Notes under the pieces: model-generated
The model's input: only the letters and a program-made list of their open reading frames with translations
Database searches by the model: none
Told to the model about the DNA's origin: nothing
Made by a program: the position numbers and the translations under genes
Assembly (NCBI GenBank): GCA_037893245.1
Contig: JBAIAA010000605.1
Coordinates: 744,001 to 808,000 of the forward strand
Reading direction: 5' to 3'
DNA length: 64,000 nt
Source of the DNA: Crossaster papposus
Lineage: Eukaryota > Echinodermata > Asteroidea > Velatida > Solasteridae
In this document: piece after piece, positions 4,630 through 60,734 of the stretch
How positions within the stretch are numbered: the stretch's first letter is position 1
How the letters are laid out: every line of letters begins with the position of its first letter

Positions 4630-4915
4630 TATTGTATACACCAAGGCAGGTTTGCTAACGTCGTGTCTTTTTCGAATCCCGACTTTGTGTGCGTTCTAGT
4701 CTCACGACTGTGTAGTTTACAAAATGCAGGATCCACCTTCGCACCGGAGCCGGTGTTTGACAAACGTGCATAATTTTAGATTGTTGCAAGCAATTCCTAA
4801 CTTTTCCCTTAGTTTTTGACGATTCTTCCTTGCTTTACCGAGGGATCCAATCAGCGACTGAATTTGAGCCTCATTATGAATTATTCATTACACACAAATA
4901 CAAAGGATATGACAA
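4630..4915 (+). repeat. Dispersed repeat R1, copy 1
   Basis: This ~280-bp segment closely matches 22335-22640. Both contain, in the same order, GTGTGCGTTCT, GTAGTTTACAAAATGC, a GGATCCA box, GTTTGACAAACG, GAGGGATCCAATCAGCGAC and TGAATTATTCATTA. No coding capacity or terminal repeats are visible. It is probably a non-autonomous transposon or SINE relative. Confidence 0.75.
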
Positions 4916-6773: not shown

Positions 6774-7600
6774 GGGTTGGTTGGCGTACGAGTTGGTTGG
6801 CGTACGAGTTGGTTGGCGTACGAGTTGGTTGGCGTACGAGTTGGTTGGCGTACGAGTTGGTTGGCGTACGAGTTGGTGTCCTGCGTACGAGTTGGTGTCC
6901 CGCGTACGAGTTGGTGTCCCGCGTACGAGTTGGTGTCCCGCGTACGAGTTGGTGTCCCGCGTACGAGTTGTCGTCCCGCGTACGAGTTGTCGTCCCGCGT
7001 ACGAGTTGTCCCGCGTACGAGTTGTCCCGCGTACGAGTTGTCCCGCGTACGAGTTGTCCCGCGTACGAGTTGTCCCGCGTACGAGTTGTCCCGCGTACGA
7101 GTTGTCCCGCGTACGAGTTGTCCCGCGTACGAGTTGTCCCGCGTACGAGTTGTCCCGCGTACGAGTTGTCCCGCGTACGAGTTGTCCCGCGTACGAGTTG
7201 TCCCGCGTACGAGTTGTCCCGCGTACGAGTTGTCCCGCGTACGAGTTGTCCCGCGTACGAGTTGTCCCGCGTACGAGTTGTCCCGCGTACGAGTTGTCCC
7301 GCGTACGAGTTGTCCCGCGTACGAGTTGTCCCGCGTACGAGTTGTCCCGCGTACGAGTTGTCCCGCGTACGAGTTGTCCCGCGTACGAGTTGTCCCGCGT
7401 ACGAGTTGTCCCGCGTACGAGTTGTCCCGCGTACGAGTTGTCCCGCGTACGAGTTGTCCCGCGTACGAGTTGTCCCGCGTACGAGTTGTCCCGCGTACGA
7501 GTTGTCCCGCGTACGAGTTGATTTGCGTACGAGTTGATTTGCGTACGAGTTGATTTGCGTACGAGTTGATTTGCGTACGAGTTGATTTGCGTACAAGTTG
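6774..7600. repeat. 16-bp minisatellite built on GCGTACGAGTT with ordered variant blocks
   Basis: About 50 head-to-tail copies share the core GCGTACGAGTT, which includes the palindrome CGTACG. Variants are spatially sorted. Six units with GGTTG linkers open the array (6775-6860). They are followed by five 19-bp units with a GGTGTCC linker and two with GTCGTCC. About 32 very uniform 16-bp units with a GTCCC linker span ~6995-7515, and the array closes with about five units with a GATTT linker (7516-7590). Because 16 is not a multiple of 3 and the unit has no stop, several frames on both strands stay open for 240-310 codons; these are artefacts, not genes. Confidence 0.97.
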
Positions 7601-8209
7601 ATCTGTTTCCTACGAAATGACCTGGGTACGAAATGACCGACATTCGTCTGTATAAAATGCCATTGCCAATGACCTACCTCGAAAACAATACACACGAACA
7701 ATAGTTCATATCGTCAGACCCTCTAATTAATACACGCGGTCCTATAAGTATAAGGTTGTTTCACGTTCCGTGGCCATTTTGGATTCAGCGCAAAAAGGGG
7801 TACGCAACTTACCCGGATGATAGCGTGTTTATATGGGTGTTCCCCTCTCCTACATGTAGTAGGCCTACAGAGGGCGCTCTACTGAGCATGCGCAACTGGA
7901 ACGTGAAACAACCTAATTCTACGCATTCGCATTTAATTTACGTTTGCAACACGCGCGCGTACATGAGCGTTAGGTGCGCAGATTACAGAGGGTCGAGGAT
8001 ACACAACAACAAATTAAACATAAAACAATGATCAAACAAGTTTTCTTTTGATTTTTTTACTTGATCTCACCAGTTGTCACACGTCACACGTGAAAATCGG
8101 ATCAGTTCAGTTTGCTTTGCTGTGACGTGGCCTAGTGGTTGTCCTTTTATTTTGTACATCCGGCTATCTTCTGCGCGCAAGTTGATACCTATGGTGGCTC
8201 TGAAGGGAC
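7601..8209. other. No gene seen
   Basis: Unique-looking sequence between two arrays. The open frame at 7756-8031 shows no domain. Confidence 0.4.
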
Positions 8210-8836
8210 ATCGCACATCGCACATTTCTGCGCACATTTCTGCGATGTCGCCGATTTTATCGCACATTTTATCGCACATTTCGGCGCCGATTTCTGCGAT
8301 ATTGCACATTTTATCGCACATTTCTGCGCCGATTTCTGCGATATTGCAGATTTTATCGTACATTTCTGCGCCGAAATCTGCGATATTGCACATTTTAACG
8401 CACATTTCTGCGCCGATTTATGCGATATTGCACATTTTATCGCACATTTCTGCGCCGATTTCTTCGATATTGCACATTTTATCACGCATTTCTGCGCAGA
8501 AATGTGCGATAAAATATGCAATATCGCTTATTTCTGCGCAGAAATGTGCGATAAAATCTGCAATATCGCAGATTTCGGCGCAGAAAGTTGCGATAAAATG
8601 TGCGATATTGCAGATTTCTGCGCAGAAATGTGCGATAAAATGTGCAATATCGCAGAAATCGGCGCAGAACTAGAAATGTGCGATAAAATGTGCAATATCG
8701 CAGAAATCGGCGCAGAAATGTGCGATAAAATGTGCAATATCGCAGAAATCGGCGCAGAAATGAGCGATAAAATGTGCAATATCGCAGAAATCGGCGCAGA
8801 AATGTGCGATAAAATGTGCAATATCGCAGAAACTTT
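8210..8836. repeat. Large inverted repeat made of ~42-bp tandem units
   Basis: From about 8210 to 8485 the unit reads TTCTGCGCCGATTTCTGCGA followed by TATTGCACATTTTATCGCAC. From about 8486 to 8836 the same unit appears in reverse complement (GTGCGATAAAATGTGCAATA and onward). The two arms (~270 and ~350 bp) can pair along their length, giving a very long hairpin. Open frames of 110-270 codons on both strands are by-products of the repeat. Confidence 0.93.
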
Positions 8837-8837
8837 G

Positions 8838-9751
8838 ATTGCAGCTCTATTTGACTTTAACCTGGCTTGCTTGCGCATTGGTTCAACATCGTGTGCACGA
8901 GCTAATTATGTCGTGCGCACAAGAGAATTGTTGTTGTTAATGTCTCTTTAGGGGCTCTGTACTTTAGGGGCTCCTAAAAAAAATGCGACGCCAAAAATAA
9001 ATCATACGTCTAAAAAAAAAAAAAACCACCCCCAAAAAAGGCACAAAAAAAGAAGGAATGCGACGCCAAAAAGGAATTCGCCCCCCAAAAATTAAATGCG
9101 ACGAACTTGAAGATATCAAACAAAACGCCAAATGTGCATGTTTAAAAGAGACTAGAAACAAATTGGCTTTGAAGATATGTTAGACTCTTAATAAAGAAAC
9201 ATGTGTCCTAAATCTTTTTTAGGAATGTATTTTGTAAAAAAAAATATTCTTTGATATTGTAATTTTGTGCAATGTTTGTTCTTATTTTTGTCCGTCAGCC
9301 AGTGGAAAATTGTAATAACAAAATTAAAAATTAAATTAAATAAAAAACTCAATCCAAGAACACCTTTGGAAACTCTCATTTATACTCGCTATGATTGTAG
9401 TCCAGTCAATTTACATCAAATTAGGGCCTGACCGAGAAGTAATTGCAATATAATTTATGTTAACACGGTCACGCGGGGAACTATCATTCTTTGACATTTG
9501 GCCGTTGGTATGGTGTTGCTGCTCTCACATTGGTCTTGAATCCTAAACATTAGCTTACATAGCATATCGATCGAAGCAAGTAACCAGGCAGATTTGTCGA
9601 GGACAACCAGTTCTGAATGTTAGTCTCCAAAAAGTGCTTAAAAAACAACCTTCCAATCAATAAAAAACATTAGATTGTTCACATGTTGTTAGTTTAATTA
9701 CTTGAAATTGTTTGACGCTTGATTGATTTCTATTGCAATTACTTCTAGGTA
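8838..9751. repeat. Segmental duplication, copy A, left arm
   Basis: It aligns with 43238-45071 (copy B). Shared words in order include TTTGACTTTAACCTGGCTTG, GAGCTAATTATGTCGTG, AGAGAATTGTTGTTGTTAAT, AATGTGCATGTTTAAAA, CGGTCACGCGG, CATATCGATCGAAGCAAGTA and finally TTGCAATTACTTCTAGG. Homology stops exactly at 9749-9751, where the 12.4 kb element begins. Copy B holds extra internal copies of the first ~400 bp. No gene is visible. Confidence 0.85.
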
Positions 9752-9899
9752 TTAAAGAGCAACTATACAGGGGTTCAATTTTTCGTGATTATGTGTTTTT
9801 CTGGCAGAATATGGATTAAATAATCGAAATAAATTAAGTTTGGGCGAGTAAGGCAAACAATTCGTTTTTTATAGAGGTTTTCTTTCTGCGCCTTCTTGG

Positions 9900-9967
9900 C
9901 CCGAAATCCGAAAAAACCCGAGGTCAGATTCTGTGTGCGCTTGTAAACACGTGACGTCATTCTGGGA
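9900..9967 (+). repeat. Left subterminal inverted repeat of the 12.4 kb element
   Basis: A 68-bp stretch starting CCCGAAATCC and ending GTGACGTCATTCTGGGA. Its reverse-complement counterpart is at 21988-22053. The inner 17 bp match in 16 positions, and the outer CCCGAA-TCC block is also kept. Weaker similarity extends outward. This is a degenerate, long terminal repeat rather than a perfect short one. Confidence 0.6.
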
Positions 9968-10208
9968 GTCAGTTTACGGCAGGCCTGTGTGTGCACAAAA
10001 TTGTTTATCTGGCCATGGTCTGGCGTACGACGACATGCACTCGAAAACTGCACAAACCTAATGTACTGTTGAACCGGTACCAGACTGCTCACGCTGCGTT
10101 CCTCTTTCTCACCAGCGATAGAACGCGACAATTTGTAGTGAAAACAACTCGGAAATATAGCTTTATATCGTGTTTATTTTAAATATTATCGCCGCTGTAC
10201 TGTGAAGG

Positions 10209-12223
10209 ATGGACTACAGAGTGATCAGTTCTTCCAGTGAAAGTGATGACGACAGTGAAACGTATTCAGACAATGACGAATTAATCGACATCGAAGACGA
10301 TGGAGCGGGTCCGGCGATGGTTGTACGTGGCGCTGAGCCGTACCGGTACGAGCCACCAGCCCCGGACCGCCCGGCAGACGATGCTGGCCACGCTGCCGAG
10401 GGACACGCGGAACCGAACATTCGGTTGGGAAATACCGACTGGTAAGTTTTATTTTGAAGACAAGTTGGAAAGATTTTACTTTGCTACCTTCACCAACAAA
10501 TCTGAGAAATTAACCATCCATTTATTTAGGCTCTAGTACTAGTTGTACGCAAGAATTTAGTTTTGAGAAAAATTGGCTAGAAAAGTGTGTTACTATGTTG
10601 GTGTTTGATGTTCTTGTGCATGGTCTCTCTTACATAAAACAACATACACATCGTTATAAATGCTGAAAATTGTTCACCAATTTTGCTAACATAAATCTTG
10701 ATCGAACAAGTTGTGCCATAAATTCTGAACCTGATTGAATGGTTAATTTATCAAATTGGTTGATTCTTGATAAGTTATGGCGAAGGTATCAAAGTAAAAT
10801 CTTTCCAAACACTCACACTGTATGTACTTTTACATGCTTTTAGTTAGTCCTTTCGTGAACTCATGTGTGTGTGTGTACTATGTCTGCAAGTACTGGGATT
10901 TAGGACCTGTTTTATGAGACAACTAACGAAAATCCACATGGACTTTCAACTTTTTAATAGATGTCGGAACCATGTTGAATATTTCCAGGGATAATTTGGA
11001 CCTTTTATACTTCCACGCTTATACTTGACCCTATTTTTGTACTGGACCTTTTTTTTGTAAATTAATTAAAAACACTAATTTGGGAGAAAAAATTGATTTG
11101 TTACCTGAAATTCCAGTAAACTCACAATCACATACGCACATTTTTCTTTTAGTTTTAGTGTTTAGTTAAATATATAAATACAATCAATTAAACTTTAAAT
11201 GTGTATGTGTTTATGTAATATTAAATCCAACTTTTTTTCTTGAAGGTGTTCTTGTGGCCGATGTATCGTCGAAGAAGATGTTGTTTCCTGCAAATGCTGT
11301 GCCGAGATTCCAGAGATGGCACAAAAGTTGGAAGAAAGCAACATCGGCACAATTGTCTGTTTCACAGAGCACCCCTGGTTCGAGGCAACTTGCCTCAATC
11401 CAGGGACACTACAGACTGCATACTATGGATACAGGCAGCAGTATGGTGCCAGGGCCATTGAGGGAGAAAGAGACAAGTACGTATTGTGCTGTAATGAGAT
11501 CACGACAGTCACGGTGTAGTTTTTCCACAACTTTTAGCTATATCGTTTCATATATCACCCCCACAAAACCCCAAAACACATGGGTAAAAGGTAAACAAAA
11601 ATCCAGTCGATTCAGATGCTTCAGATAGAGATGACAGCAGTAGAACAGCAATCTACCCAGGTTGAAGATTTAGTTATGTGCATGAACTTATATTGCACTG
11701 CAGTAGCATGTCCATGTCCATTGTTTTTGCCCAGAAGAAAATAATTTGATAAATAGAAGGGGGAGGGGGGGGGGGGAATGACAGCAAAATTACTCATTGT
11801 GGCGAGTTCCGTTTGTACAATTTTGTTCAATATACACACACACTAACAAATTAACGGTGGCTTATGTTTGTTCAAAATGAGAAGGGGGGGGGGGGGTGAA
11901 TTTTCCTCCCTACCTCTCCCTACTTGAAACACCTTTCAATTATTTGTGTGTATATAATCAATGTATGAAAGTCATTTCTCTACACATTGGACTAAATTTG
12001 CTCTTCTTCACTTTCAACCCCCCCCCCCCCCCCCCCCCCCCCCCCTTCCAGGAAATTCCGACATGTTGCATACAGGCAGGTGGTCCGTTGGTGTTGGGGG
12101 TTTCTCGGGAGACACAACCGTGTGCTGTTACCTTCATGTGTCATGAGAGTGGTGCGGGAAACCTACCCAGATCCCGAAGGAACTTTTAAAGGTTTCCAGT
12201 ACCCTCCATTAGAAGATTTGTAA
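10209..12223 (+). CDS. P2X7-type cytoplasmic ('ballast') domain protein, 3 exons, ~211 aa
   Basis: Exons 10209-10441, 11246-11476 and 12052-12223 join in frame with GT-AG sites (donors GTAAGT and GTACGT; acceptors TTGAAG and TTCCAG). The first ~40 residues are acidic and Ser-rich (SSSSESDDDSETYSDNDE). The rest, from about residue 70, matches the zinc-binding C-terminal cytoplasmic domain of the vertebrate P2X7 ion channel: LGNTDWCSCGRC, a CKCC cluster, TEHPWFEATCLNPGTLQTAY, HVAYRQVVRWCWGFLGR and LLPSCVMRVVRETYP. The channel transmembrane and ectodomains are absent, so this is a soluble stand-alone domain. 'P2X purinoceptor 7-like' proteins of this kind are a large family in fish, corals and echinoderms; their role is unknown. 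The reading frame is intact. The gene converges on the transposase gene and lies inside the same TTAA-bounded insertion. Confidence 0.88.
12018..12045 (+). repeat. 28-nt poly(C) tract serving as polypyrimidine tract
   Basis: It lies directly before the TTCCAG acceptor of exon 3 of the P2X7-type gene, so the intron's polypyrimidine tract is almost pure C. Confidence 0.9.
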
Positions 12224-12619
12224 AAAGTTAAAGGGGAAACTGGTTTAATTACTGCAGGGGGAAGGGGTGTGGGTAGGGATCAGTCGATGACCATCACAAC
12301 ACAACAATGTTTGTAAATCACTCTTCTGTGGCCCCTCTAACTGAGAGGCCTTTGCTAATTTATTTGGAAGGCAGTTACATTTCATTGTAACATTAGCAAA
12401 TTTAGCTTAGTGTAAATGTACATGTAGTTACAACTGTTTTAAATCAGAAATTATACAGTATCGTGTTAACTGATAAATATGATTTTGGTAATTTAAACGA
12501 GCAGTATGATTTTTTTTCATTTTGGCTTAACAACAAATTTGACAACAGAATTAGTATAAATTTATTAGTTTAAATTACATTCACACTTTGTTCCCCATAT
12601 TCAAAGGGTGCTTAATAAC

Positions 12620-13225
12620 ATTCCACATGATGTACTTCGTGATACAAAAGTAGTTGTCCACCTTGCCATATTTACTATTATTGCATTACAATTTTGTATG
12701 TGCTTGGTTGTCCACCTCTCATTATATTTATTATCCTTATTACATGAAGTTGGTGCTACACAAGCAGCTGTCTTCCCTCACCATTATTTATTAGCCTTAT
12801 TACATGTACTTGGTGCTACACGAGCAGTTGTCCACCTTGCCATGTTTACAAAAGCAGCTGACTATTATATTTATCATTATACTTATTACATGTACTTGGT
12901 GCTACACGAGCAGTTGTCCACCTTGCCATATTTACTATTCTTTTATTACGTAGAACATGTACTTGGTGCTACACGAGCAGTTGTCCACCTTGCCATGTTT
13001 ACAAAAGCAGCCGACTATTATATTTATTATTATACTTATTACATGTACTTGGCGGTACACAAGCAGTTGTCCACTTGGCCATATTATTTTATTACGTTGA
13101 ACATGTACTTGGTGCTACACGAGCAATTGTCCACTTTGCCATATTTACTATTATTTTATTACGTAGAACATGTACTTGGTGCTACACGAGCAATTGTCCA
13201 CTTTGCCATATTTATTTCACATGTA
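12620..13225. repeat. Minisatellite between the two convergent genes
   Basis: Degenerate tandem units (about 60-130 bp) share ACATGTACTTGGTGCTACAC, GAGCAGTTGTCCACCTTGCC and ATATTTACTATTATTTTATT. A 224-codon open frame at 12608-13282 is produced by the repeat (recurring HVLGATRAVVHLA) and is not treated as a gene. The array occupies the space between the 3' ends of the P2X7-type gene and the transposase gene. Confidence 0.85.
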
Positions 13226-13569
13226 AACGATAATGTAATTACAACAAAATATATCTGTTCCTTATCACAACATAAGAAATAGAATACTAGTTCAACCATC
13301 AGCCCTGTGCGCTCAGGGCTAACCGCCACCTTGGAAAATAAAATTTAATGAAACTTTGATAATTTGTTATAAGATGTTGGAGTCATATTTCTTGTATACA
13401 AAGATTATCCATCTATTGGTACAGGTGGTTTTAGTCTCAAGGTATTGGAAGTATGCCACCGTTAGTAATGCAGCATCAGTCAGTGGTACAATATTATCAG
13501 TTGTTAAACTCCACCCCCCCCCCCCCCCCCCCCCCCCAACTATCCGACCATCTTGGTTTTGTTTCGTTA

Positions 13570-15647
13570 CTATTTATCTTGTTGTTTTCTTTGTGCTTCT
13601 TGTTTCTTTTTCAGCTTCTTCATCTCTTGCTTTTCCTTTTTCTTACGTTTTATTTTCTTCGTTGTCTCGTCCTCTACTACCAGTCCCTCTGTGCCATCTG
13701 GTCGTTTGACTTGGCTTACACTCTGGGCAAACCTAGACACAAACTGGGCAACAGCCACCTCCTTTACTGGGTGCTGCTGCTTGGCTGTCAGCGGCCCGAG
13801 ATTCTTACACAAGACGGGGTATCCCTTCCACGCTTCTTTCACCCCATCTTCACACAAGTTTATTGCCTTGGTGAGGATGCTCTTGCTGTAGTCTGTAGTA
13901 AAAATTAAAAATTTAATTGTAGTAAGAATACCATTTGTTTGGACCCTATACCCCTTGTTTGAGGAACAAATTGATTGAAAAGCCAATCAATCAGGTCGAG
14001 GCCATGCAGCATCTAGAAAAGCAGTCTTGCATCATAAACAATTCATCTTTTTCACACACTTAAACAGTGCAGTATACAGATTATTGCCTCTATAGAAATT
14101 ATAAACATTCTTTTTCATGTTAAAATAAGCAGTACCTTAAAAGTCTTTTTATTTGCCCGGAAGACGATACACAGTCAAGTTTCATTAATACAAACACGAT
14201 AATACAAAGTCTGGTCATAGCAAACATAAAGCCATGGTCAAGACTGTGCATGAATGTGCACAATGAATGACCGGCAATCCCCTTTAATAATACAACCAAA
14301 AATTTGGATAGGTCCGGCTGAGTTTGTACTATCGAGAGTAGACTGTACATGAACATAGAATCAATTGAGTTTCATAAACTGCCAACTTACTGTGTGTGCA
14401 CTGCACTAGCAGCTTACGGACACTGTAGCCCCCGGTGTCCTGTTTGGCCCTTGGAAACGATATGCTGTAAGCCTGTCGTCCATCAGCTCGAGTTACTTGC
14501 TCTCTTCCCGCATTTTCATTATAATGAAGAGCAGCGAGGTATATCCTATTACAGAAAGGATGGGAAATATTACTTCAAAAGGACATTCGCTAAAAAAAAG
14601 AGAATGCATATTTACAGTCAGAATGCATCACTTGCATATTGTTTTAGATTTTGCTTTCTTTTTAAGTGCAACTTCATGGTCCACTGATTGAAGAAGAGCC
14701 ATATGGTTGTTAATGACAAGGTACAAATTATTGGAAGAAATACATTTATCTGGTAAACCATTTCACATAACATATAAGTGATACATTTCTATTGACTGTT
14801 GCACAACAATAATTATGTGCATGTGTGTAACTGATTCATTTTCCTCAACTGTCAATATATAAACAGATCATAACATTCTGCAATCTAAATCACGAACACT
14901 GCAAGTAGTTGTGCAATATGTTTCTTGTCATTTCGTCTTTGCAGCTGGATGCCTCAAATTACTTCCAACCTGTTGTAATTCAGGTTTAAGGTACACCAAA
15001 AGGGCTCAAGCAGAACGAATATTTAGTGCTGAAATTCCCATGGGAAGATTTGCCTTCCCCCCCCCCCCCCCCCCCCCTGTTGCCACCCTCTTGAAGTTTA
15101 AGGGGCTGTTGCACGCCATCTGTGGTTGATATACATTTATTTTGGACGTAAATGCTATAAAATAGTTTTCATCCTGAAGATGGAGGAAACAATAACTTTC
15201 CCCTTGAAAATGGAAATGCCCCCCCCCCCCCTTGATTTCCTATGCAACAGGAATTGGGGACTTTGTCAAGAGCAGCCTTACCTGCACACCATACCCTCAA
15301 AGGAGTACACATACATCTTGGGAGCAAACTGGATGATAAGGGCATGAAATGCTTCCACCGATGAGGTCTGCATAGATGGAGACAGCATCCTAACATCCTT
15401 CTGTATGTAGGGACTCTCCAGTATGCTGCAAACTTTCTCTGCAGATTTAGAGCCTGAACAAATGTAGTGCTAATTTAAATTAGTTCCCAGCCGACTCAAA
15501 TACTGGCTAGGGAATGCTTATCAGTAGCATAACTCCATGCCCCAATTGCTGAATGATCAAGATGGGTAGGGGTCAGAAAGAACACAAGGATGCTTCCCTG
15601 TAATCGACTGTATCTATGAACATAATTTGTTTACATGTTACTGCATT

Positions 15648-15678
<31 letters not shown>

Positions 15679-18600
15679 GGTGGGGGTGTAGTGGTGTTGG
15701 TGTGATCCGATGAGCCATTTCCCCTGTTAAAACGAAGACACTTGTGAGACACAATAACGAAATTAGTGTAGTTGGTGAAAAGGTGGGCAAAACACTTCCA
15801 CAATAAACTGAAAAGAATCGTGAATTCTAGAGATTTGGTATAAATTGATTTTTTTAAGGGGATTAAAAACGCCGCTTTCTCCCTCCCTTGATCCACTACT
15901 GCTCAATGATATGACAAGTAATTAATATTACCTGGAATCAGCCACTTTCGAGGTGTCAAATCATCATGGGCACATCTGGGAAACAGTGGATTTCCATGGA
16001 CATGTATGTTCATGATGTGGTTGGTGATACTCTCGAATTTCGCCCACATCAAGTCAGGGTCACCTCCAGGCGTTGAAGCCGCAACCCAGTACATATTGTT
16101 TACGATGGAATGCATCCAATCTTGTACTGGTTCACATCCCTTTGTTTTTCCCAAGGCACGGAGTTTCTTCTTGAGACCTAAGAAAATAAATAAACAATGA
16201 TAATGTAACATAAATACTCAATTTATTTAGATTTGTAACAAAGGCAAGTGGATATTAGAAGCGTTAATTATCTTCTCAAACCAAGTACATAAGCCAGAAA
16301 GTAAAAGTGTGTTGTACTCAGTGCTCATTAAATGGAAATTGAAGTATTATAAACTGCCTTTTTTTATTGTTTTGATTTTATTATGTTGAAATTATGTTCA
16401 CAACGATGAACGATCTTGAACTTAAATCCGTCCAGGCAATAATAAATTAGAAAAATGGCATTTAAAACCATAAAATGTCAACCCTTTTCACCAAGGTTGA
16501 ACCTTAACACATGTACAATGTGTATATAATTAGGATTAGAAACTGATAGGTGCATAAAAAAGGACTGATCTTGCTGAGTTTGTATTGCATGCTTCATCTT
16601 TGCACAGTGAAAAATAAGATTTGTAAAGGCATTTTGGTTACCTTTGGCAACATGCCACACATCAAAATAGTGCTTGGTTCCTCTGGGTGCAAGCTCCTCC
16701 CTAATGTACTTGGTGATCTGCTTGTGTCGATCCGTCACCACTGTCCCAATCTTCAGCCCCGTATCATCAAGCCCACTGGACTGCTCGTACCATGCCCTCC
16801 ATCTCCATCAATGGGGATTTGTACGCCGTTTCGCTTTTCTATTAAAAATATTTAGTGATTATAGAAAGTAAGTAAACCGACTGCCTCAAACTTTGACTGG
16901 ACCAGGATTTGAACCTGAGACCTCTGGCACTGGCATGTTAATCCAGAGGTCTCGGGTTCCAGTCCCGGTTCAGTCAAATTTTCTTTGCTCAAACTAAAAT
17001 CAGAAATATTTAGTGTTACGACTATAAATCTTGCATAGAAGTGCAAGGATTGTCACATAGGTCAGTAAATAAAACAAACCTGGACCAGCTCAATGTGCAG
17101 AACTTTGCCTACGTTCATCTCCAGAACGCTGTAGCAGCCATACTTTGCAGTATGGCCCATGCTGTCAGCTCGCATATCCATGCCAAGAAAGGACTCGTCA
17201 CGCTTGGATTTTATTTCAGCTACAACTGCCTCCTGTTCCTCATTCCAAACATGGCAGATAGCTGGCTGTAGATATCTGCAGCAATACATGTAATTGTAAT
17301 GTCATCATAATGTACTCACTACATGATACAGTTCAGTCAGTGTTGTTTTTTTGCCACAAACTGGCGAGCACATGATTCATACACTTGTGGCAGGGATTGA
17401 CAAGTGATAGTACATGTATGTGCCAGGGTGATGTGCACTTAATAGTGTCTCGCCCTCATTGACATTTCTTTATTAACCCTAACCCCCTAGCGGTTGTTTG
17501 GGGGAACTGTCCTGAATCCCCAAAATCCTCCACTGTGCAGTGAGCCTATGGCACATTCTTCATACTTGGTAAAAATTGGAACATGGAGCCCCATGTACAG
17601 TAATGGTGCCAAAGCTCTCCAGTCCTGAATCCCCCAAAATACTCAAAAATCCACTGGTGGATTTTGATGGATTTAGGACGGTTAGGGTAAGCAACACTTA
17701 CTCAGAACTTTCCTTAAGAGACAGTGAAATTATAATTTCACAGGCATATCTCGGGAGGAATTCAAACCCATGACCTCCCGCTTACTAGTGCAGACATTTA
17801 GAGAGATGGACTGGCGTCAGAGTTAGCATTTCAGAAATGCACAGACAAGTTATTGATAAAAACAACTGTAGTGACAATACCTTCGCTGATATTTGAAGAA
17901 AGTTTGGTACGTGAAGACAGCCACGTTCACATTTGCCAGTGCTTGGAGAGTCCTCTTGATACATGCTCCAGATAGCAGTAGGGCAGTAGACAAGATCAAG
18001 TTACCAGCAGGACAATCTCCAACCATTGGCTGGCTCTGCCACTTCCGGGAGTGGCCGCATGCCCTGACTCGGCATGTCTGCCGAACCTCCACAAGGGTAC
18101 CACCAACTGGTCTACACACTTTCCCTTTGGATGGGCCAGCACACTTTGGGCAGCTCTGGAAAAGTGCCATCAGACTGCCTTCAAACACCAGGTACTTCTT
18201 ATCATCGTACGATGGGGCACTCGCGCTGCCTGAACTGGAAACGTGAAAAAAAGGTAAGGCTAACTTTATAAAGCGACACATGAATCTCACTTTAGTATCA
18301 TTGGGACTAAATATTATCTTAAATCAATACTTTTTATTATAACAACTCTAAACAAGGAAATTACAAATTAGCCAGAAAATGTTCTAAAATTATGCCACTA
18401 GTTTTTGTATTAATCAAGTAGGCGTACAAGTCATTTGTTTTGCCCGAATGTACTGGGCTGGATACATGTAGTACGGTGTATAAGAAACAAACACCCATTA
18501 AGGCATAAACACACAAACCCACAAATTGTATTCACTTGTGAAGAAATTTAAAATAAAGCATTTCATCTAGTTATACATGTACAGCCTCATCAAGAAAAAT

Positions 18601-21600
18601 TATAAGTACATGTATCTGCTAAATAAAATAACAATTGTACCTTGTATTAGTATCCGTATCCGAACTACCCCTACTTGAAGGATTGTATTCACTGTCAGAT
18701 GACTGCTCCCTCTGTCCATCTGAAAGCTCCGGCTCTTCTACAGGTGAGTCCTCCGCAATCACCACTTGCACACGCTTTGGCTCGGATGGCTTCCTTGGTG
18801 CCAACTTCAAGAGTGGTGGCAGCTTGACAAGTTCACAGTGTGTTGCTTTTGAAGCGAACACTCCTGGAGGCAGCTTCAAGGTTTGCGAAGCTGATTATAA
18901 CAAATCAACACAAGTATGCAGTTTAATATTGTGATTGTTACATGATAATTTGTACAATAAAGCTAAGGCATATGTCTGATCTTGGTTACAATGAAAAAAA
19001 ATTAGTATTATCATTTTGTGAAATTATTTTTTTGGGGGGGGGGGGGGGGGGTATAGCAAAACAACACAAAAAATTGCCCTCCTCTTCATGATCACATGTG
19101 TAGTGTGGTTGGGCCAAAGTAAAAACAAGTTTGTTTCCGGTAACAGCAACAAAATGGGGAAGTTATGAAGGAAAAATATTTTATTTTGGGAATAAATTTT
19201 GGGTACATACAAAATGCGTTGAAAAACATTTCATTTTAGGAGAACATTTTGTAAGCACTATCATTGAAGTAACATAGAATGTTTTTCTGTTTAGTTCGAC
19301 TGTACAGTTCTTTGAATTCAATACCCATCTTCTTCAGAATACTGCTGACAATATTGTTCAGGAATATGCATCAAATGTGGTGGGTCTTGAGCATTGTTAA
19401 ATTTATCTATTGTTGGTATTTCATGCAAGATTTTCGAGACAGTCGGATACATGATTTCTAGGTCGGTGGTGTAAGGGAAAACGTTTTATGTCTGTCGGCA
19501 CGTTTTTGTTACGGACGGTAGGGTACCGAAAACGACTATTTTTCTTCTAGGCCTTATTTTGGTTAAATCTTCACTATCTGAGTGGAGTACGTGTTGGTAA
19601 AACATTGTAAACATTGTATGTAAACAATACATCTTGCCACATGTGCATTAACATGTGTCCATTGGATGGATGCAGATGGATGCAAAACTTGTGTCTGCAT
19701 TGTGTATTTAAAAATGTAAGCCAAGTAACAATCCAATTTGCCTTTACCTTGAGTATGGGTGAAATATTTGGGATGTGTCTGGTTCTTTTTGGACCGTACG
19801 TAGTGCTTTTTAGGTGGCTGGGTTGGGTTAGTGTTGATATTCACAACATCTTGTTGTATCTCAAAATGCGTTGAGGGGCGCAGTGGACTCTGCACGCTCT
19901 TCAAGGGGCTCTGTATAATGAATAAAATCAATAATTAGGGAAGATTAATTTTAAAAGAAATAAAAAGGGCAACCTTATGCATGGTCTTGATTTAATATAC
20001 CATCATAGAATCAGTTCTGTGTAAATAGCAACAGGTTTGTTTTACCCCAAAAATGTGTTTAATTAAATAGCAATCATTTTATTTTTCCAAGTTCTATCTC
20101 AAATGATGTGGTAACATGAAACTAAACTAATACAAGCAGGAAAAATCAAGGGAGAAATGTTTTTGTGTGAATTTTGGATCCTTAAATATGCCAATAACAA
20201 TCAGGTTTGTTATTTGGTCAAAGAAAACGAAGGTAAAGTTGCTCAAATTACCCTAAACATGTTGTACTAAGCTACATACATGTATATTTTGGGCAGTGGA
20301 TATTTTGCCAGTGCCGGTTTTACTTTAAGCACTATTTTCATGGACGCTTTCTCTGATCGGCTAGGTAGCGCCAACCTTCTTTCAGTAGGTCCAAAAAATT
20401 TTCACTGCACAAGTTCAGTGCAGGGCAGTATCATGCAGAGACGAGCTCTGGCAATCCATGGAGGATTAGCATTTACTGAAAAAAGGCCGACGCGGCCTAG
20501 CCAATCTGAAGGAGCGTCCGGGAAATTATCATTTACCAAACGAAAGCAGGTGCCGCCAAAAAATTCACAACCTATTTTTTGAGAGATTGTCATCAACACA
20601 AACCAAAAAAATAAACTTCTTACCTGCAAATATTTTGGGCTGCCTAGTGCAGTAACTGTGGAGTCTGACGCAGAACCCTCGTCATGCTCATATGTCTTCT
20701 CGTACTGAGATACAGCTTCATCAACGACCTGCCATTAAGAATGTCTTGCATATAAATGCACGTACAGTACATATGTGCACAAAATGTTGTACAACTGGCT
20801 AAAGCTGAGCCCAAATCCCAGAAAGTGCCAGTATTAACTGACATAAAATGTCAAACTTTTCCCTCCATATTTATTGAATAGTTATCCATACAATCCAGAT
20901 TACATTATTCATTGTCAAAAGGAAAGATTTTACTATACCCCCACAAAAACACATCAAAAACCAACAAATCCTAAACAATACTACATGTATTTTCATTCAA
21001 AATTGTTCAAACAAAAGTCTTGAAATCCTGAATAGTAAGGTTGTGCCATGTGTTTGAACAGTTCTGAACCCAAATAGACGGTTATTTTCTAGGATATTTT
21101 TTTGGTGTGTGTTTTGGTGGGGGGTATGCCGGTATGATAGTAAAATCTTTCAAAAAAGTAGACATAAAATAATTTTCACGAAATAGGTGCAACGCTTTTC
21201 ATTGCACAATTCTGTAAACGGTAGGCCGACATGTTTTTTTATTTATTCTGTTTTGGATAGACTAATTAATTTATATAGCTAGTACTCTTTAAAAAATGGT
21301 GCTCGTTTTCAGTCATACAATATGGGGCAATATACAAACAAATTGTATTAGTTTTTATTTACCCTGGATCGCTCTCGTTTCTCGTACGCAAGCCTACGAC
21401 GACGCAGCTTGCGCCGCCGACTCGGTGATGGAGAGCCTGCAACTGCAGCGCTCGCGTCGTGTCCGGTGCTTGTGCTCGCACTCGCGGTGCCGAAGCCGGT
21501 GAATGAGCGGACGTCTGACGGGGCTTTTTTGGTCGGCACTGCGTCCCGCTTGACTCTGATGAAGTGCTTGCTGCCGTGCTGTTTCTGAAGAACGCTAGAT

Positions 21601-21797
21601 GGGTCGATGCAATCTTCAGTGAAGTGTTCCTGGCAAATTTCGGACCACTTCGTTGCCTTGAAGTCAGACCTCGTTGTGTTCACAAACTTGCTCCACGCAC
21701 GATTTCTTTTGTTGTCCCGCGGAAAGGAGAAGAAACTTAAGTCGGGGTTTTTGGCCTTGTTTCTCGAACAACCCCCAACTGCACACGACCGAGGCAT
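13570..21797 (-). CDS. THAP-domain DDE transposase (Kolobok-like), 11 exons, ~864 aa, with a 1-nt insertion in exon 7
   Basis: Minus-strand exons: 21797-21363, 20728-20624, 19910-19748, 18890-18641, 18234-17881, 17275-17080, 16838-16642, 16177-15932, 15453-15282, 14545-14391 and 13892-13570. All have GT-AG borders and compatible phases. Exon 1 encodes a THAP zinc finger (CAVGGC, CQEHF, AVPT). Exon 4 is acidic. Exon 5 has a CPKC zinc-ribbon-like segment and MVGDCPAGNL. The putative DDE core is spread over exon 6 (DMRADSMGHTAKYG), exon 7 (VVTDRHKQI, HYFDVWHVAKG) and exon 9 (SSVEAFHALI). Exon 11 ends in a Lys-rich tail. This is a widespread metazoan family usually annotated 'uncharacterized protein'. 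In exon 7, near 16771-16775, a run of three C (plus strand) puts the frame off by one; the other ten exons are intact. That fits either recent inactivation or an assembly indel. An upstream in-frame Met at 21812 is an alternative start. Confidence 0.82.
16890..16985. repeat. Inverted pair of tRNA-like (B-box) segments
   Basis: Two ~36-bp arms, one containing GGATTTGAACCTGAGACC and the other GGTCTCGGGTTCCAGTCC, face each other across a ~15-bp centre. Each arm, read on the appropriate strand, has a Pol III B-box-like GGTTC core and both share CCAGAGGTCTC. It sits in intron 6 of the transposase gene, between exon 6 (ends 17080) and exon 7 (starts 16838). Confidence 0.75.
17690..17835 (-). mobile_element. 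tRNA-derived SINE-like fragment in an intron
   Basis: On the minus strand the sequence around 17750-17800 reads CTAGTAAGCGGGAGGTCATG and then GGGTTTGAATTCC, a classic tRNA-SINE head with anticodon-arm and B-box-like parts. The tail is unclear. It lies in intron 5 of the transposase gene. Confidence 0.5.
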
Positions 21798-21987
21798 TAC
21801 ACAAAATATCAATCAATCTTTCTTCAATGTCATCACAAAAGAGGAAAAAAGAAGAAATTCGAGCAGTAGAAGTTTGTATTTGCGAGCGACCAAACAACGT
21901 GACGTGAACAGGAGATGGGACTTATGGCCGGCTGTGTACACACGTAGTACGTACCGCCGGACGTGTGTGGTTGATGTTGTTCTTGTG

Positions 21988-22053
21988 TCCCAGAATGTCG
22001 TCACAGGGGTCACACGCATAAATGAATACATAATTTGTTTTTTGGATTCGGGG
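21988..22053 (-). repeat. Right subterminal inverted repeat of the 12.4 kb element
   Basis: Reverse complement partner of 9900-9967. On the minus strand it runs from CCCGAATCC to GTGACGACATTCTGGGA, at a distance from the right TTAA (about 107 bp) similar to that on the left (about 144 bp). Confidence 0.6.
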
Positions 22054-22243
22054 GAAATCGCGTTTGAGAAATGCTCGTTTTTGATCGCTTTTTTGTACAA
22101 CAAAATCGACAATTATACTAATGTTACTATTTAAATCGGGGAAAGGGTAGTATTACCTTCTTAAAAATACGAATCATCCTAATAAACCAGGTAGGTGTAT
22201 ATTTCCTCGTAAATTGACCGAACTATTGCGCCCTGACGCATCC

Positions 22244-22248
22244 ACATT
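22244..22248 (+). other. Unoccupied counterpart of the Polinton target site
   Basis: The sequence CATCCACATTGAAAACG spans the exact point where copy B carries the Polinton flanked by ACATT on both sides. Only one ACATT is present here. Confidence 0.9.
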
Positions 22249-22295
22249 GAAAACGTATGAGCAGAAAACATGTTGATCTCGAATTACACAGTATA

Positions 22296-23456
22296 GTCTA
22301 GCCCTAGACCCTTGTGTTATCGGCGCCCACCACGCGCGCAGATTCGTTAACGCTGTCTCTTTTTCAAATCCCGGCTTCGTGTGCGTTCTGGTCTTACGCA
22401 TGCGTAGTTTACAAAATGCGGCTGGATCCATGTTCGCACTGGAGCCGACGTTTGACAAACGTACATGATTTTGGATTCCCAGAAGGGTCTAGCACTAGTT
22501 GGCTAGCAATTGTTAACTTTAACCTTAGTTTTCGACGATTCTCCCTCGCTTTTCCGAGGGATCCAATCAGCGACCGAGTTTGAGCCTCATCATGAATTAT
22601 TCATTATACACAAATACAGGATATGACTGGGTGTGTGTACACAGTGTACATGTAATGTCTGTGTACATGTACAGTGTATGTGATGGCGACTCAATGCACG
22701 TATAGTATGCATTGCGCGAAATATGCAGACTTAATAGCATTGTGTGGCCGATCTTCCGGGGCAGTGCTACTAGTGCAAGCTAGCTGCAGCCGCCAACCGG
22801 CGCGGCCTGGACGCATTGTACCCGTACCGATCTTGTCGAGTCCCGCTGCAGCATCTCGTTAGTAATGTGGTGCCGCGGAGAACGGAAGGTGTTTTTTTTA
22901 TTCCACAAGTGTATCGAACCATAGAGAAAGAAACAGATCGAAGTCGAACGTACGTCATTTTGGCTACGTTTCCCTGAAATCAAAGGAAACATTATCATTC
23001 GTTTCGTGGTTTCACTCATCACAAATTTAAACACCAAAGACAAATACCTCTGCACCCGCAGTCACAAATAAACGCCGGGGCAGCCATGATTTGCTGTGTC
23101 GATGTACAATGTACATCCATGTGTACACAGGTCAATCGCGGCGAGTCTGGACATGTGTACACAGGTCAATCGCGGCGAGTCTGGACATGTTTTGCGCGAC
23201 ACAATAACCCTCAGGTCTGCACGTATTTGCTTAACCGTCCATCATTATCACGTGATATGAATACTGCATATATTACAATAGTCTGACCACGCCCACGATG
23301 TGCCAACTTGTCCAAGACCTTCGACAGGGTCCAATTCACGGGTGGGGGTTCGTCGTGAAATAGCGCCCTCTATAACATCGGTGGTTTGTGTCAGTGATCG
23401 CGAAATAAACAACACGAAGGTCTTGGAACCAAGACTATACACAGTACGGTGCAGCA
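22296..23456. other. 1.16 kb block present in copy A but not in copy B, contains repeat R1 copy 2
   Basis: Copy B joins ...TTACACAGT directly to GAACAGGTCACCCC. In copy A these words are separated by this block, and similar ACACAGT/AGCAGT words sit at both edges. The block contains the R1 repeat (22335-22640, matching 4630-4915) and a direct duplication of GTCAATCGCGGCGAGTCTGG at about 23130 and 23164. Whether it was gained by A or deleted from B cannot be decided here. Confidence 0.7.
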
Positions 23457-23639
23457 GTGAACAGGTCACCCCTAACAACAACGTGGTTGGTTCTACCATT
23501 GTAGGGAGGGGGGGGGGGCGTCATGCAGCTCCACACGAAGAAATCAAACAACTCAATTTTAATTTTATCATAGAGCAAGCGCGTTTACTTTGTACATGTG
23601 TATTGAAACAAAAATAGAACACTTTCTTGCAGAGTTGTA

Positions 23640-24085
23640 ATGACTTTTTTGGCGACTCAACTCGACTCATGTCCCGATGGGTAATTGACTCGACTCGACT
23701 CGACTCGACTCGACCCGACCGCAGGCAAATGACTCAACTCATCAGAATGACTCGAGTTAAGTCCCTAAAATAAGAGCAAAACGACTTACGCCAGTGTCGG
23801 TTCATGTTCATGTCACGTTTATGTTAGCGAATAATAAGTACACATACGGTATATTATACAGTGGCCGTCTGTACACGTTTTCCTTTCTTTATGATATAAC
23901 AATTAAACATTCGTATCATGGATTTCCACCTTGTGTTTCTGTAACGTGTTTATTAGTGACTCAACTCGACTACACACCGTGACTTGACTCGACCATCTTG
24001 ACGTAATGACTCTACTCGACTCGAGTCACTTTTGAAAAATGTCTCGACTCGACTTGAGACACAACAATCAGTGACTCCTTACAAC
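23640..24085. repeat. GACTC-type microsatellite clusters (copy A)
   Basis: Two clusters of (GACTC)n/(ACTCG)n words at about 23645-23770 and 23955-24080 flank a non-repetitive centre. The same arrangement is at 61585-62080 in copy B with different repeat counts. Confidence 0.85.
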
Positions 24086-24399
24086 TCTGCTTTCTTGTTA
24101 TAGGTGAAATGTAGTACATGTGTACATGTATATGGCAAAATAAAATCGCCTGTTAAATCATCATTTTGTATTGTTATTTCATCAGTATACTATCGGCAAT
24201 TTACATCTCGTATTAGAATTAGACAATTCTCACACAAAAATATGAATGACAAGTTTTAAGTTGAAAAAACAAATACAACTTTATACAATGAAATGAGCCA
24301 ATACGGTGCAGATAAATCTCTTTCAATCATCAAAAGCAAAAACCACCTATGCAGGGGCAACTTGAGCTGACAATAGCAGTACATAGACAAATACGAAGC

Positions 24400-25015
24400 A
24401 TTGTGCTTGGCATAGACAAACACCCCGAATGTGAGGTATTTGTACTGTGATCCTGTTAACAGTCACCACTATTGCTAACATTTAGTCAATTACAATCCCT
24501 GAACACAACGAATAGTTCCTTTTTCCTGAGGTTTGCCATCTGGCAAGCCAAGTAAATAACACTTTGAAGTACTCAAGCTAACTACATGGAGGCTATCATT
24601 AAAAACACTCACAGTAGGAGAAACAAGAACTCCTCCTGTCACCTTGACATTACAAAGTTAGCAGCTTCAATTAAAACTGGCTCAATAACAAGTGGCTCAG
24701 CCTCGTTCAAAATTGTATCTACCATCTCAACACGTAATAAGGTCAGGTGACTGTAATTAAGTAATTCTGTCTTCACTATAGGCTTTTCAAAAAATTACAA
24801 AAATGCAGTGAATCCATCATTCAATGCAGCTTCAATGCTATTTACCACACTTCTACCAACAGGACATGCATCTTTATCATATTCACGTAAAATATATGTG
24901 AATGCACAAACTATGGTCTCAGCTAAGGCACTACATGCATGTGACTTAGAAATAAAGTCTGGCACAGACATGGCTGGGATACATATCTGGCAATGTACAC
25001 AAAATATGACTTGTT
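24400..25015 (-). pseudogene. Degenerate coding fragment inside the duplication (copy A), family unknown
   Basis: On the minus strand a coding-like frame reads CQICIPAMSVPDFIS, ALAETIVCAFTYILREYD and VVNSIEAALNDGFTAFL, then after stops and shifts FFEKPIVKTELL, LRVEMVDTILNEAEPLVIEP and TGGVLVSPTVSVFND, and finally YLLGLPDGKP. The amphipathic, protein-like composition over ~200 codons is shared with copy B (62420-63015), which has its own extra stop. I do not recognise the family. The forward-strand open frame at 24808-25017 overlaps it and is probably a shadow. Confidence 0.4.
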
Positions 25016-25271
25016 AAAACACAGTATCAGGCCTAAATCACTGACTTAAAATCCATCTAATCTGCACACAGTTTGCACAGTCAACAATAATTATGTCCAA
25101 CCACACTGTAGACAAAAGTACAATTGCAATTAATTCAAAAATCTCCAACTGACACAGTCTTACAAAGATTTAAATGCCACACAATAATATGCCAAGACAA
25201 TGAAGTCATTGATAAAACATCATTCACACTCTGGTGTGAACTATAGTGCAAAATACAGTTAGCTGAAAACC

Positions 25272-25576
25272 TAGGCCAAGTTCGATCAAGGAACTACAGT
25301 TAACTAGTGGTTATAGTTCGTGACGTCATTAGGACATGCGCACTGAAGTTAAAGTGCGAACGACTCTAGTCGAACTATTGACCATAAACTGCCAAACTGG
25401 TTCTCTCTATACTGTGCTATTGAAGCGGCTATATTGGTTACCATCGATGCGACCAACCGCGGTAGGGTGGTCGTGAATAGTCGACTAGACTAGTCCAACC
25501 ATCGTCGACTAGCCTGAGTTCGATCAGAGTTAGTCAAACTATAGTTAACTATAGTCCTTGATCGAACTTGGCCCTA
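25272..25576. mobile_element. MITE, ~305 bp (copy A)
   Basis: Terminal inverted repeats TAGG(G)CCAAGTTCGATCAAGGA and complement, continued inward by an AGTTAACT-containing stretch. There is no coding capacity. It is also present at the homologous place in copy B (63284-63584), so it inserted before the duplication. Confidence 0.85.
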
Positions 25577-26284
25577 GAGTTACATTAACGTGTGTGTAAA
25601 AATAATATTTGGCTCAAAAACACTCAATCTAACTTAAGCATAGGCCTAAACAACTGGCTCTAAAATAATTTGATAATAATCTTCCACAGATTAATTTGAG
25701 GCACAACCGCCTAAAAACTGAACAGATCTAGCTTAGATACAAATGGTCAAATATCATTAAACACAATTCTAACAATAGAATTATACAATGAAAATTGCGC
25801 ACCACACAATGTAACCGAAATTTGTCGAAGAAGTCCTCTCAATGCTGGGTATAGGCACGAATTATATCAATCTTTCGCGACAATAAATGCGCGGAAGCGA
25901 ACGCGTACATGTAGTTCTCATGTAGAAGAAAATCTAAAGTCCAGCACAAAACATATCCGGGTAAAAGTACGTCACAAAGAAATGGTAAATGTTCCATCCT
26001 GTCGACGACGCCCTTTTGTAGCAGACCACACCCATGTCAATTAATGGGAAAGGAGGAACGGTCCTCTAATAAAAGCAGACGAGCATTTAACAAAATATGC
26101 AATAAAACATAGACTACATTCTATAAAAACGACGATCTCCTAAATATAAATTTACAAGACTACACTTATTATATTAAATGCACAGTATTATTAAGGCTTA
26201 GTTCAATTATGCCACAGCAATACAACATGAAGGTTGTACATGTCAACACATGGCTATCTGCACTTTACATGTACGTACGTACGC

Positions 26285-30794: not shown

Positions 30795-31841
30795 TCAAGG
30801 TCCAATTTCACGCATTTTCATGCTACATGCTTTCAAAGAATAATAACGCAATTTCCATGATACCCATTGTACGCCCTTGTTATCACTGGCATTCTCATCT
30901 GGGTAATATCCACCATTCAAGTGAGAATAATAACACCGATTAAACCACCAGGCTCCTGTGTACTGTTGTGCACAATTACTTTCTGGTTTATTATCATTGT
31001 CACGATCCTTTGTCGTAAAGCGATGCCCTCTGTGATCCCCAAGAGAGTCCTTGGCAGTGCTGCTTGCATCGTATTGGCCATAATTCAGACTGTACTCACC
31101 CGGAGATATGTGAAAATCTGAGTACTTTGCCCATGCCGTGTTACCGTCCCAGTCCTCCAAGTCAACTCGTAGCCCCCATGATCCACGTGAATCATCAGAC
31201 GTCAGAGTCACCAAGTTATCATTTCCCAACCAGAACTCATCGGACAGATTTCCAAAGCCAGACTGGTAGTCGGCCCAGTTACGGTAGAAGTCTACGCTGC
31301 CATCTTGTCGCCTCTGAAACACGATCCATCCCCCGCCGTCAGTTTCCATGTCACAGTAGACACGAACACCGTCATTGCAGTATCCCTCTGGGTAGATTGT
31401 GTACATACCGCTTGAACGATAACCAGCATTTAAGAGTATCTTGCAACTTCTGTAGCGATTCAAGGAACTATCAGCCAGTGAGTAGCGAGGTGTGTCCTCA
31501 TCTGCATCAAAGTACACGCTCCCTTGACTTGAATTGAAGTAGTCGAGATGCTGCCGTCCTATGGCAAGGTTCAACTCGCACATTTTACTGCAGCCATTAA
31601 AGTTAAAGGATTTGCAATGTTGATCCATGCTGCATTCACGTCCGCAGATGACACGAGATCGTACAAATTTGGTTGAAAACGCAAACCCTTTCAGGGCGCG
31701 ATTTTCTGCGGCATAAAACGCATGTTTCCCTGCATAAGAAGTTTCCCATCCAGAGACGGACAAAGTAGCTCCCTGACATATGATGAATATTATGTGAAAT
31801 AGTTGCAACCCGGTAAAGGTCAGTTTCACCATTGCTTCCAT
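30795..31841 (-). CDS. Secreted PAN/apple plus fibrinogen-related domain protein (FReD lectin), intronless, 348 aa
   Basis: An uninterrupted frame. Residues 1-30 form a signal peptide with a hydrophobic core (LQLFHIIFIICQG). Residues ~32-112 are a PAN/apple-like module with Cys at 66, 70, 76, 84 and 88 (ICGREC, HCKSFNFNGCSKMCEL). Residues ~131-346 are a fibrinogen-related domain: SCKILLNAG, CDMETDGGGWIVFQRRQDGS, FYRNW, GFGNLSDEFWLGN, a calcium-site segment DRDNDNK (279-285) and the CAQQYTGAWWFNRCYYSHLNG block, ending WKLRYYSLKACSMKMR. These proteins are usually secreted pattern-recognition lectins of the ficolin/tenascin-R type that bind acetylated sugars; the role here is inferred from the family. 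No intron is needed, unlike most family members, which may mean retroposition. It lies just downstream of a DNA transposon end. Confidence 0.92.
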   Translation of the reverse strand: MEAMVKLTFTGLQLFHIIFIICQGATLSVSGWETSYAGKHAFYAAENRALKGFAFSTKFVRSRVICGRECSMDQHCKSFNFNGCSKMCELNLAIGRQHLDYFNSSQGSVYFDADEDTPRYSLADSSLNRYRSCKILLNAGYRSSGMYTIYPEGYCNDGVRVYCDMETDGGGWIVFQRRQDGSVDFYRNWADYQSGFGNLSDEFWLGNDNLVTLTSDDSRGSWGLRVDLEDWDGNTAWAKYSDFHISPGEYSLNYGQYDASSTAKDSLGDHRGHRFTTKDRDNDNKPESNCAQQYTGAWWFNRCYYSHLNGGYYPDENASDNKGVQWVSWKLRYYSLKACSMKMREIGP

Positions 31842-45123: not shown

Positions 45124-45394
45124 AGTAGTATAGGATGTAGCGATCCTAGACCACACCCAATTTGTCTAACTTTTGTCACATATTGTAGCGATCCTAGACC
45201 ACACCCAATTTGTCTAACTTTTGTCACATAAATATGTGACAAAACCAAAAACCAAAAACCAAAAACCAAAAACCAAAAACCAAAAACCAAAAACCAAAAA
45301 CCAAAAACCAAACCAAAAGTCTTTAAGTATAAAATTCGAGTTATAAAGAATCTCGCCTCACCTTATAAATTTCTGGTCTTATCTCAAATAAAAA
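45124..45394 (+). repeat. Left terminal inverted repeat of the Polinton (271 bp)
   Basis: It consists of AGTAGTATAGGAT, two tandem copies of a ~47-bp unit (GTAGCGATCCTAGACCACAC ... TTTTGTCACAT), a 26-bp palindrome (45219-45244: 12-bp arms TTTTGTCACATA), about nine CCAAAAA units and ~90 bp of unique sequence to TCAAATAAAAA. It is identical to the right repeat apart from the count and spacing of CCAAAAA units. Confidence 0.97.
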
Positions 45395-45428
45395 TGAGAT
45401 TTTTTTTTTATATATATTAAATAGAGAC

Positions 45429-49696: not shown

Positions 49697-49704
49697 GAAA
49701 AATC

Positions 49705-50703: not shown

Positions 50704-50712
50704 TTTACTTAA

Positions 50713-51141: not shown

Positions 51142-51177
51142 ATTTTAAAAGAAGTAATATAAAAAATACCTATAAAA
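51142..51177. promoter_or_regulatory. 36-bp divergent promoter between the 142-aa and 433-aa genes
   Basis: AT-only-like spacer containing TTTTAAAA, TAATATAAAAAA and, touching the + start codon, TATAAAA (51171-51177). The spacing leaves virtually no 5' UTR for either gene. Confidence 0.55.
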
Positions 51178-52479: not shown

Positions 52480-52521
52480 AAAAAAAAAAGCCTTCTGTAG
52501 CTTACTGAAGGCTTTTTTTTT
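52477..52521. terminator. Bidirectional hairpin between convergent genes
   Basis: A-tract plus GCCTTC, an 11-nt loop, then GAAGGC plus T-tract: arms of ~14-15 bp. It starts at the stop of the + gene and ends at the stop of the - gene (52520). Read on either strand it is a stem followed by T-run, like an intrinsic terminator or the 3' hairpins used by some large DNA viruses. Confidence 0.75.
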
Positions 52522-53734: not shown

Positions 53735-53747
53735 TTATATAAACAAA

Positions 53748-53978: not shown

Positions 53979-54008
53979 TTATTAAAGCTTTATATTGTTT
54001 TTATTTTT

Positions 54009-54356: not shown

Positions 54357-54362
54357 CTTTTA

Positions 54363-54923: not shown

Positions 54924-54944
54924 TTATTATAGCGAGATAAACTA

Positions 54945-55156: not shown

Positions 55157-55157
55157 G

Positions 55158-60732: not shown

Positions 60733-60734
60733 TT

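Follow-up and report, generated by a model that had tools for sequence, protein, structure and literature searches.

A probable Kol0-type Kolobok transposon carrying transposase and KolX genes in a genomic window of Crossaster papposus

Introduction

Transposons of the Kolobok superfamily use TTAA as the target and have termini of the form 5'-RR..YY-3' (Kojima and Bao, 2022, Mob DNA 13:24; PMC9587614), while their transposases usually combine a THAP domain, a DDE catalytic core and an H2CH motif, as stated in the part of PMC6004289 cited here. According to the passages of Kojima and Bao used here, the elements of one lineage, Kol0, encode the transposase together with a second protein, KolX, which matches the fold of the cytoplasmic ballast domain of the P2X7 receptor. 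The same passages derive P2X7 from the joining of KolX to a P2X4-like gene and regard Nanor as a probably domesticated KolX. The superfamily also includes KolobokP, whose described features are long direct repeats at the termini (about 450 or 660 bp) and, in most, though not all, families, a His-Me nuclease (PMC9587614). Another system suitable for comparison is the Drosophila P element, which, like Kolobok, has a THAP domain, an RNase H core and a domain located between the second catalytic Asp and the catalytic Glu (PMC7776569, in the passages cited).

Here we describe a block of about 12.45 kb in a 64,000-bp stretch of contig JBAIAA010000605.1 of Crossaster papposus (this whole stretch is referred to below as the window). 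With a probability of about 0.9, we consider the block to be a copy of a Kol0-lineage Kolobok, inserted at TTAA into a host segment whose second, diverged copy lacks it, and carrying the genes of both the transposase and KolX. The initial annotation of this DNA had asked whether the neighborhood of P2X7-type and THAP-DDE genes is general; such a general pairing is already in print, as the Kol0 pair of transposase and KolX (Kojima and Bao, 2022), to which our literature search on the P2X7 ballast domain or KolX together with Kolobok or transposase also led, while a search on P2RX7, transposable elements and domain expansion in oyster returned nothing. What is new here is the copy from an echinoderm-like genome, a protein model of Saccostrea cucullata that joins THAP to KolX, and residue counts for KolX-like proteins.

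Results and Discussion

Insertion Site and Borders

Self-comparison of the window revealed two copies of one host segment: copy A (9103-9755, 22208-22292 and 23455-25991) and copy B (44442-45123 and 61358-64000). The left flank, 9103-9755, aligns to 44442-45082 with 86.2% identity over 668 columns. The start of the right flank, 22208-22248, is identical to 45083-45123 at 41 of 41 positions, and the homology continues in 22244-22292 against 61358-61406 and then in 23455-25991 against 61403-64000, with 92.7% identity. Copy B is uninterrupted and reads CTTCTAGG-CCTTAA-CGTAAATTG, with the unoccupied site CTTCTAGGCCTTAACGTAAATTG at 45069-45091 on the forward strand; copy A is split between CTTCTAGGTATTAA and CGTAAATTG by about 12.45 kb. 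The initial annotation was right in that only one of the two flank copies contains the block, copy B being intact across this TTAA.

The homology stops at 9755, and because it restarts at 22208 in the comparison with the empty site, the right border is placed at 22207; the element, to which no strand is assigned, therefore occupies 9756-22207. The TTAA at 9752-9755, on its left border, has a counterpart at the same place in the empty site and is likely to be the target of insertion. The block had initially been described as TTAA-bounded, from 9752 to 22164: the left TTAA stands, whereas the right one (22161-22164) turned out to be internal. A right end at this inner TTAA was rejected, as 43 bp separate it from the resumed flank homology. 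The termini AG (9756-9757) and CT (22206-22207) fit the 5'-RR..YY-3' pattern of Kolobok, a motif so short that the agreement is a weak test.

Further inside, the left subterminal site GTGACGTCATTCTGGGA (9951-9967, plus strand), 195 bp from the left end, has an inverted match in the right subterminal site GTGACGACATTCTGGGA (21988-22004, minus strand), which lies 203 bp from 22207 and 156 bp from 22160. The two sites, of the form GTGACG(T/A)CATTCTGGGA, agree at 16 of 17 bases (blastn-short, E 0.003), and their nearly symmetric placement (195 and 203 bp) fits a right end at 22207 better than one at the inner TTAA, with which the distances would be 195 and 156 bp. The inverted homology of the 480-nt ends had a score that was reached in one of 300 base shuffles, such shuffles being a lenient control.

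Several features of the borders weigh against the insertion of a Kolobok element. The right junction reads TTTCCT followed directly by CGTAAATTG, without TTAA, exactly where copy B has one; TTAA occurs on the left border and in the empty site, while its duplication is not visible at the right end. Tip-to-tip comparison gives no convincing terminal inverted repeat: 2-9% of random window positions equal the anchored score of 22207, this position ranks only 11th among the 220 scanned right ends, and some of the better-scoring ends, for instance 22231 and 22299, lie in the flank. (The end at the inner TTAA performs at the chance level, its score being equalled by 39-74% of random positions.) Finally, no further copies of either end were detected within the window, where each end pattern matches only itself.

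The presence of a single TTAA, the lack of convincing terminal inverted repeats and the unseen insertion duplication speak for another reading, in which the block and its two genes belong to the ancestral host DNA and copy B has lost them by deletion. We consider this highly unlikely, since the junction in copy B coincides with a TTAA, for which our own arithmetic gives a chance of about 2% (465 TTAA in 64,000 bp and a junction remnant of 6 nt), since the inverted 17-mers stand 195 bp from the left end and 203 bp from the right end, and since the two genes of the block are those published for Kol0 Kolobok.

An insertion by a Kol0-type element remains the preferred explanation, and two other element types were compared with the block. 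An 8-bp target duplication of the P-element type was not found at its borders, where the left flank ends with TCTAGGTATTAA and the right flank starts with CGTAAATTGACC. KolobokP belongs to the same superfamily and, like the block, has an accessory gene that is encoded on the other strand (Kojima and Bao, 2022, in the passages cited). No long terminal direct repeats were present at the element ends among the 20 largest of the 28 direct-repeat families found in 8000-24000 or in the self-comparison of the window, and no Pfam match to a His-Me finger nuclease was obtained for the two genes and ten other open reading frames (ORFs), although a diverged or spliced gene could escape such a search. On these two grounds, within the repeats and ORFs covered, KolobokP was rejected.

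Gene Content and the Transposase

The two convergent multi-exon genes of the initial annotation were recovered as splice models predicted from the sequence, in which GT-AG sites keep the frame at all introns (two in the KolX gene and ten in the transposase gene). The block holds 17 ORFs of at least 100 amino acids (aa): six overlap exons, ten were compared with Pfam and gave no match that would point to an extra gene, and the remaining one is 13553-13891 (plus strand). Between the convergent genes, at 12630-13229, there is a tandem array with periods of 67 and 153 bp.

The transposase gene is modeled in 11 exons on the minus strand, from 21797 to 13570. Exon 1 (21363-21797) encodes the THAP domain with its AVPT box (Pfam THAP, E 2.5e-13); exons 2 (20624-20728), 3 (19748-19910), 4 (18641-18890) and 10 (14391-14545) follow from the splice model, and exon 5 (17881-18234) contains a CxxC zinc-type motif. 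The catalytic residues are distributed over exon 6 (17080-17275), with the first Asp (codon 17176-17178), exon 7 (16642-16838), with the second Asp (16730-16732), and exon 9 (15282-15453), with the Glu (15353-15355). Exon 7 also encodes DVWH (16652-16663), an instance of the C/DxxH motif that Kol0 transposases have between the second Asp and the Glu; exon 8 (15932-16177) contains the H2CH zinc motif, and exon 11 (13570-13892) ends with the stop codon. The product matches a Mutator-like RNase H domain (PF20700, E 4.4e-9).

Altogether 72 relatives of the transposase were found, the best with 50% identity. In an alignment of 14 of them with the window sequence (A3), both Asp residues, the DxxH motif and the H2CH residues (H585, H590, C600 and H602 in the numbering of the Saccostrea transposase P0013) are invariant in all 15 rows, and the catalytic Glu is invariant in a second alignment (A4), which comprises 30 of the 72, and is present in the window transposase as well. 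The THAP domain, together with the D, D, DxxH, E and H2CH residues, bears out the former assignment to Kolobok-like THAP-DDE transposases. A pattern derived from the transposase alignment selected 30 stretches in IMG/VR viral contigs, none of which was confirmed as a relative.

One extra base near 16772, in exon 7, breaks the frame between the first and the second catalytic Asp, which may reflect either decay of the gene or an error of the assembly. The residues around the first Asp, GMDMRADSMGH, depart from the near-invariant consensus GGDGRADSPGH, and these departures favor decay. This copy of the element no longer looks autonomous, since its transposase (or the assembly at this point) is frameshifted. 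Inside the intron between exons 6 and 7, at 16895-16977, a tRNA-like inverted repeat (TTTGAACCTGAGACCTC..GAGGTCTCGGGTTCCA) was noticed by eye; ARAGORN, run with the bacterial code, found no tRNA in the window.

The KolX Gene

The second gene lies on the plus strand and has three exons: exon 1 (10209-10441), bounded by the GT-AG splice model, encodes an acidic N-terminal part; exon 2 (11246-11476) encodes C79, C81, C84, C95, C96 and C116; and exon 3 (12052-12223) encodes R158, R178, C184 and R190 and ends with the stop codon. The product has 211 aa, or 214 aa if the alternative donor at 11485 is used. The gene of a P2X7-type domain announced by the initial annotation is present, with an open frame in the splice model, and the protein matches the Pfam P2X7 intracellular domain (P2RX7_C, PF20478) with E 1e-14. 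All four of its PDB matches are P2X purinoceptor 7, the best being 6u9v (E 3.8e-10), which we take to be the rat protein. The two best protein matches come from starfish and cover 82% of the query each, with 57% identity for Patiria miniata and 53% for Asterias rubens, which points to an echinoderm source. The window KolX was aligned with all 12 protein matches (alignment A1) and, in alignment A2, the window protein and the match P0012 were left out. A fold model of the Patiria relative P0001 was too poor to be used (mean predicted local distance difference test, pLDDT, 56), so that the assignment to KolX is made by sequence only. Of 49 stretches selected by a KolX alignment pattern in IMG/VR viral contigs, none was confirmed.

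Taken together, the block resembles the Kol0 elements, such as Kolobok-1_XT, in its DDD/E transposase, its KolX with a ballast domain, the TTAA at the insertion point and the 5'-AG...CT-3' termini, and differs from them in the frameshifted transposase and the missing right-hand TTAA (PMC9587614, in the passages cited). The contrast between an open KolX frame and a frameshifted transposase, as well as the large number of single-domain P2X7-like proteins (159 matches), might suggest that the block is a dead Kolobok with an independent host P2X7-like gene lying inside it by accident. Such a coincidence seems extremely improbable to us, as both genes lie within the same two borders, as genes for both proteins belong to the published Kol0 elements (PMC9587614), and as a protein model of Saccostrea cucullata, P0085, combines both domains. 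This model, of 398 aa, joins THAP (E 1.1e-11) to P2RX7_C (E 4.4e-16); in it, residues 7-264 match the Saccostrea transposase P0013 (32%, E 1e-31) and residues 87-398 the Saccostrea KolX P0006 (71%). It may be an artefact of gene modeling, but it offers an independent sign that THAP and KolX exons lie together, and it is our own contribution to the evidence that the pairing is general.

Conservation of the Putative Nucleotide and Zinc Sites

With the P2X7 ballast domain and Nanor, as treated in the part of PMC7016195 cited here, the window KolX shares seven aligned cysteines and the equivalents of R546, H547 and R578. In contrast to P2X7, it is a stand-alone protein without the channel part, and, in contrast to rat P2X7, it has Met in place of R574, Asp in place of K583 and R178 in place of F566; its RQQYG stretch is not seen in rat P2X7 as aligned.

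The five residues listed for the guanosine diphosphate (GDP) site of rat P2X7 are R546, H547, R574, R578 and K583 (PMC7016195), and at these places the window KolX has R, H, M, R and D. The counts given below refer to 121 KolX-like proteins (120 listed of 159 matches, plus P0012), a set which was gathered via shared words in conserved stretches, and so favors conserved columns, and in which related sequences are counted singly. The place of R546 is Arg in 120 of 121 proteins and that of R578 in 116 of 120, while Y550 is kept in 120 of 121. The place of F566, which adjoins the residues A567 and L569 reported to contact GDP in P2X7 (PMC9859053, in the passages cited), is Arg in 119 of 120, and all three arginines occur together in 114 of 120. 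Other residues argue against a conserved GDP site: the place of H547 is mostly Tyr (75/121; His in 41/121), that of R574 is Val in 107 of 120, and at that of K583 Ser, Pro or Ala predominate. The conservation of R546 and R578, in contrast to the other residues, had already been noted by Rump et al. (2020; PMC7016195), who also asked whether such proteins bind GDP; the passages on the GDP site in this paper and in PMC9859053 contain no mention of the third arginine.

Of the 80 rows that span the positions of rat C477, C479, C482, C498, C499, C506 and C572, 76 retain all seven cysteines. It is our own reading of the alignment that they would correspond to the seven zinc ligands, Kojima and Bao giving only the number of zinc-ligand cysteines in the passages cited.

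Possible Role of KolX in Transposition

The transposase would recognize the ends of the element via its THAP domain and cut and paste them with the DD(DxxH)E RNase H core, while KolX would act as a conserved accessory protein of the element; both this chemistry and the service of KolX in transposition are inferred. The mechanism that we favor, unproven as it is, would have KolX bind a guanine nucleotide and help to assemble the transposon ends. The P element transposase needs guanosine triphosphate (GTP), which positions the transposon end, and has the GTP-binding domain built into its own chain between D303 and E531 (PMC7776569, in the passages cited), i.e., within 228 residues; the corresponding gap of Kolobok is 152 residues (D205-E357 of P0014). 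This shorter gap, combined with a separate small relative of the GDP-holding P2X7 domain, is what leads us to propose that KolX might provide the guanine-nucleotide function to the THAP-DDE transposase in trans, the GDP pocket of P2X7 then being a relic of it. We nevertheless regard such a cofactor role as rather improbable, its odds being lowered by the loss of the GDP-site residues R574 and K583 in KolX-like proteins.

The loss of these two residues out of five, set beside the near-complete retention of the seven cysteines, would suit a zinc protein that acts at the TTAA target or at the flanking DNA and is no nucleotide-binding cofactor. The fact that some TTAA-specific piggyBac elements also carry a KolX-like protein (PMC9587614) speaks for a protein that acts at TTAA. 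However, the piggyBac version is said in the passages cited to be without most of the cysteines, so that zinc would not be the shared function, and the two pocket arginines and the third one are as conserved as the cysteines. We treat the zinc role as a tentative possibility, on the unlikely side.

The locus allows an occupied site to be compared directly with an empty one for the lineage from which, according to Kojima and Bao (PMC9587614), the cytoplasmic tail of P2X7 derives. The GTP/GDP and zinc sites of this tail are described as being of unknown function in the passages of PMC9859053 cited here. If the arginines of KolX do bind a guanine nucleotide, the question of the P2X7 tail site would become testable in a transposition assay; otherwise, the block simply adds another copy to a transposon kind already described.

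Other Features of the Window

The flank of copy B carries another large element, at 45124-61357, which we call polinton/adintovirus-like, the name being our own reading of its gene set. It has inverted ends with a 48-bp repeat occurring twice (45136-45230 and 61251-61345), an rve integrase ORF (49705-50703, minus strand) and an A32-like ATPase ORF (55158-55772, minus strand), while seven of the nine ORFs tried in it have no Pfam match. The flank segments around this element share an overlap of 5 bp, which corresponds to 22244-22248 of copy A. Copy A alone contains a further insert of about 1.16 kb (22293-23454), with TATAGTCT..AGACTATA-like ends recognized by eye; the stretch 22338-22627 of this insert matches 4646-4913 with 79% identity. 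Elsewhere in the window, the ORF at 30795-31841 (minus strand) encodes fibrinogen C-terminal (E 3.9e-69) and PAN domains, and a 16-bp tandem repeat extends over 6784-7584 in 48.8 copies with 97% matches.

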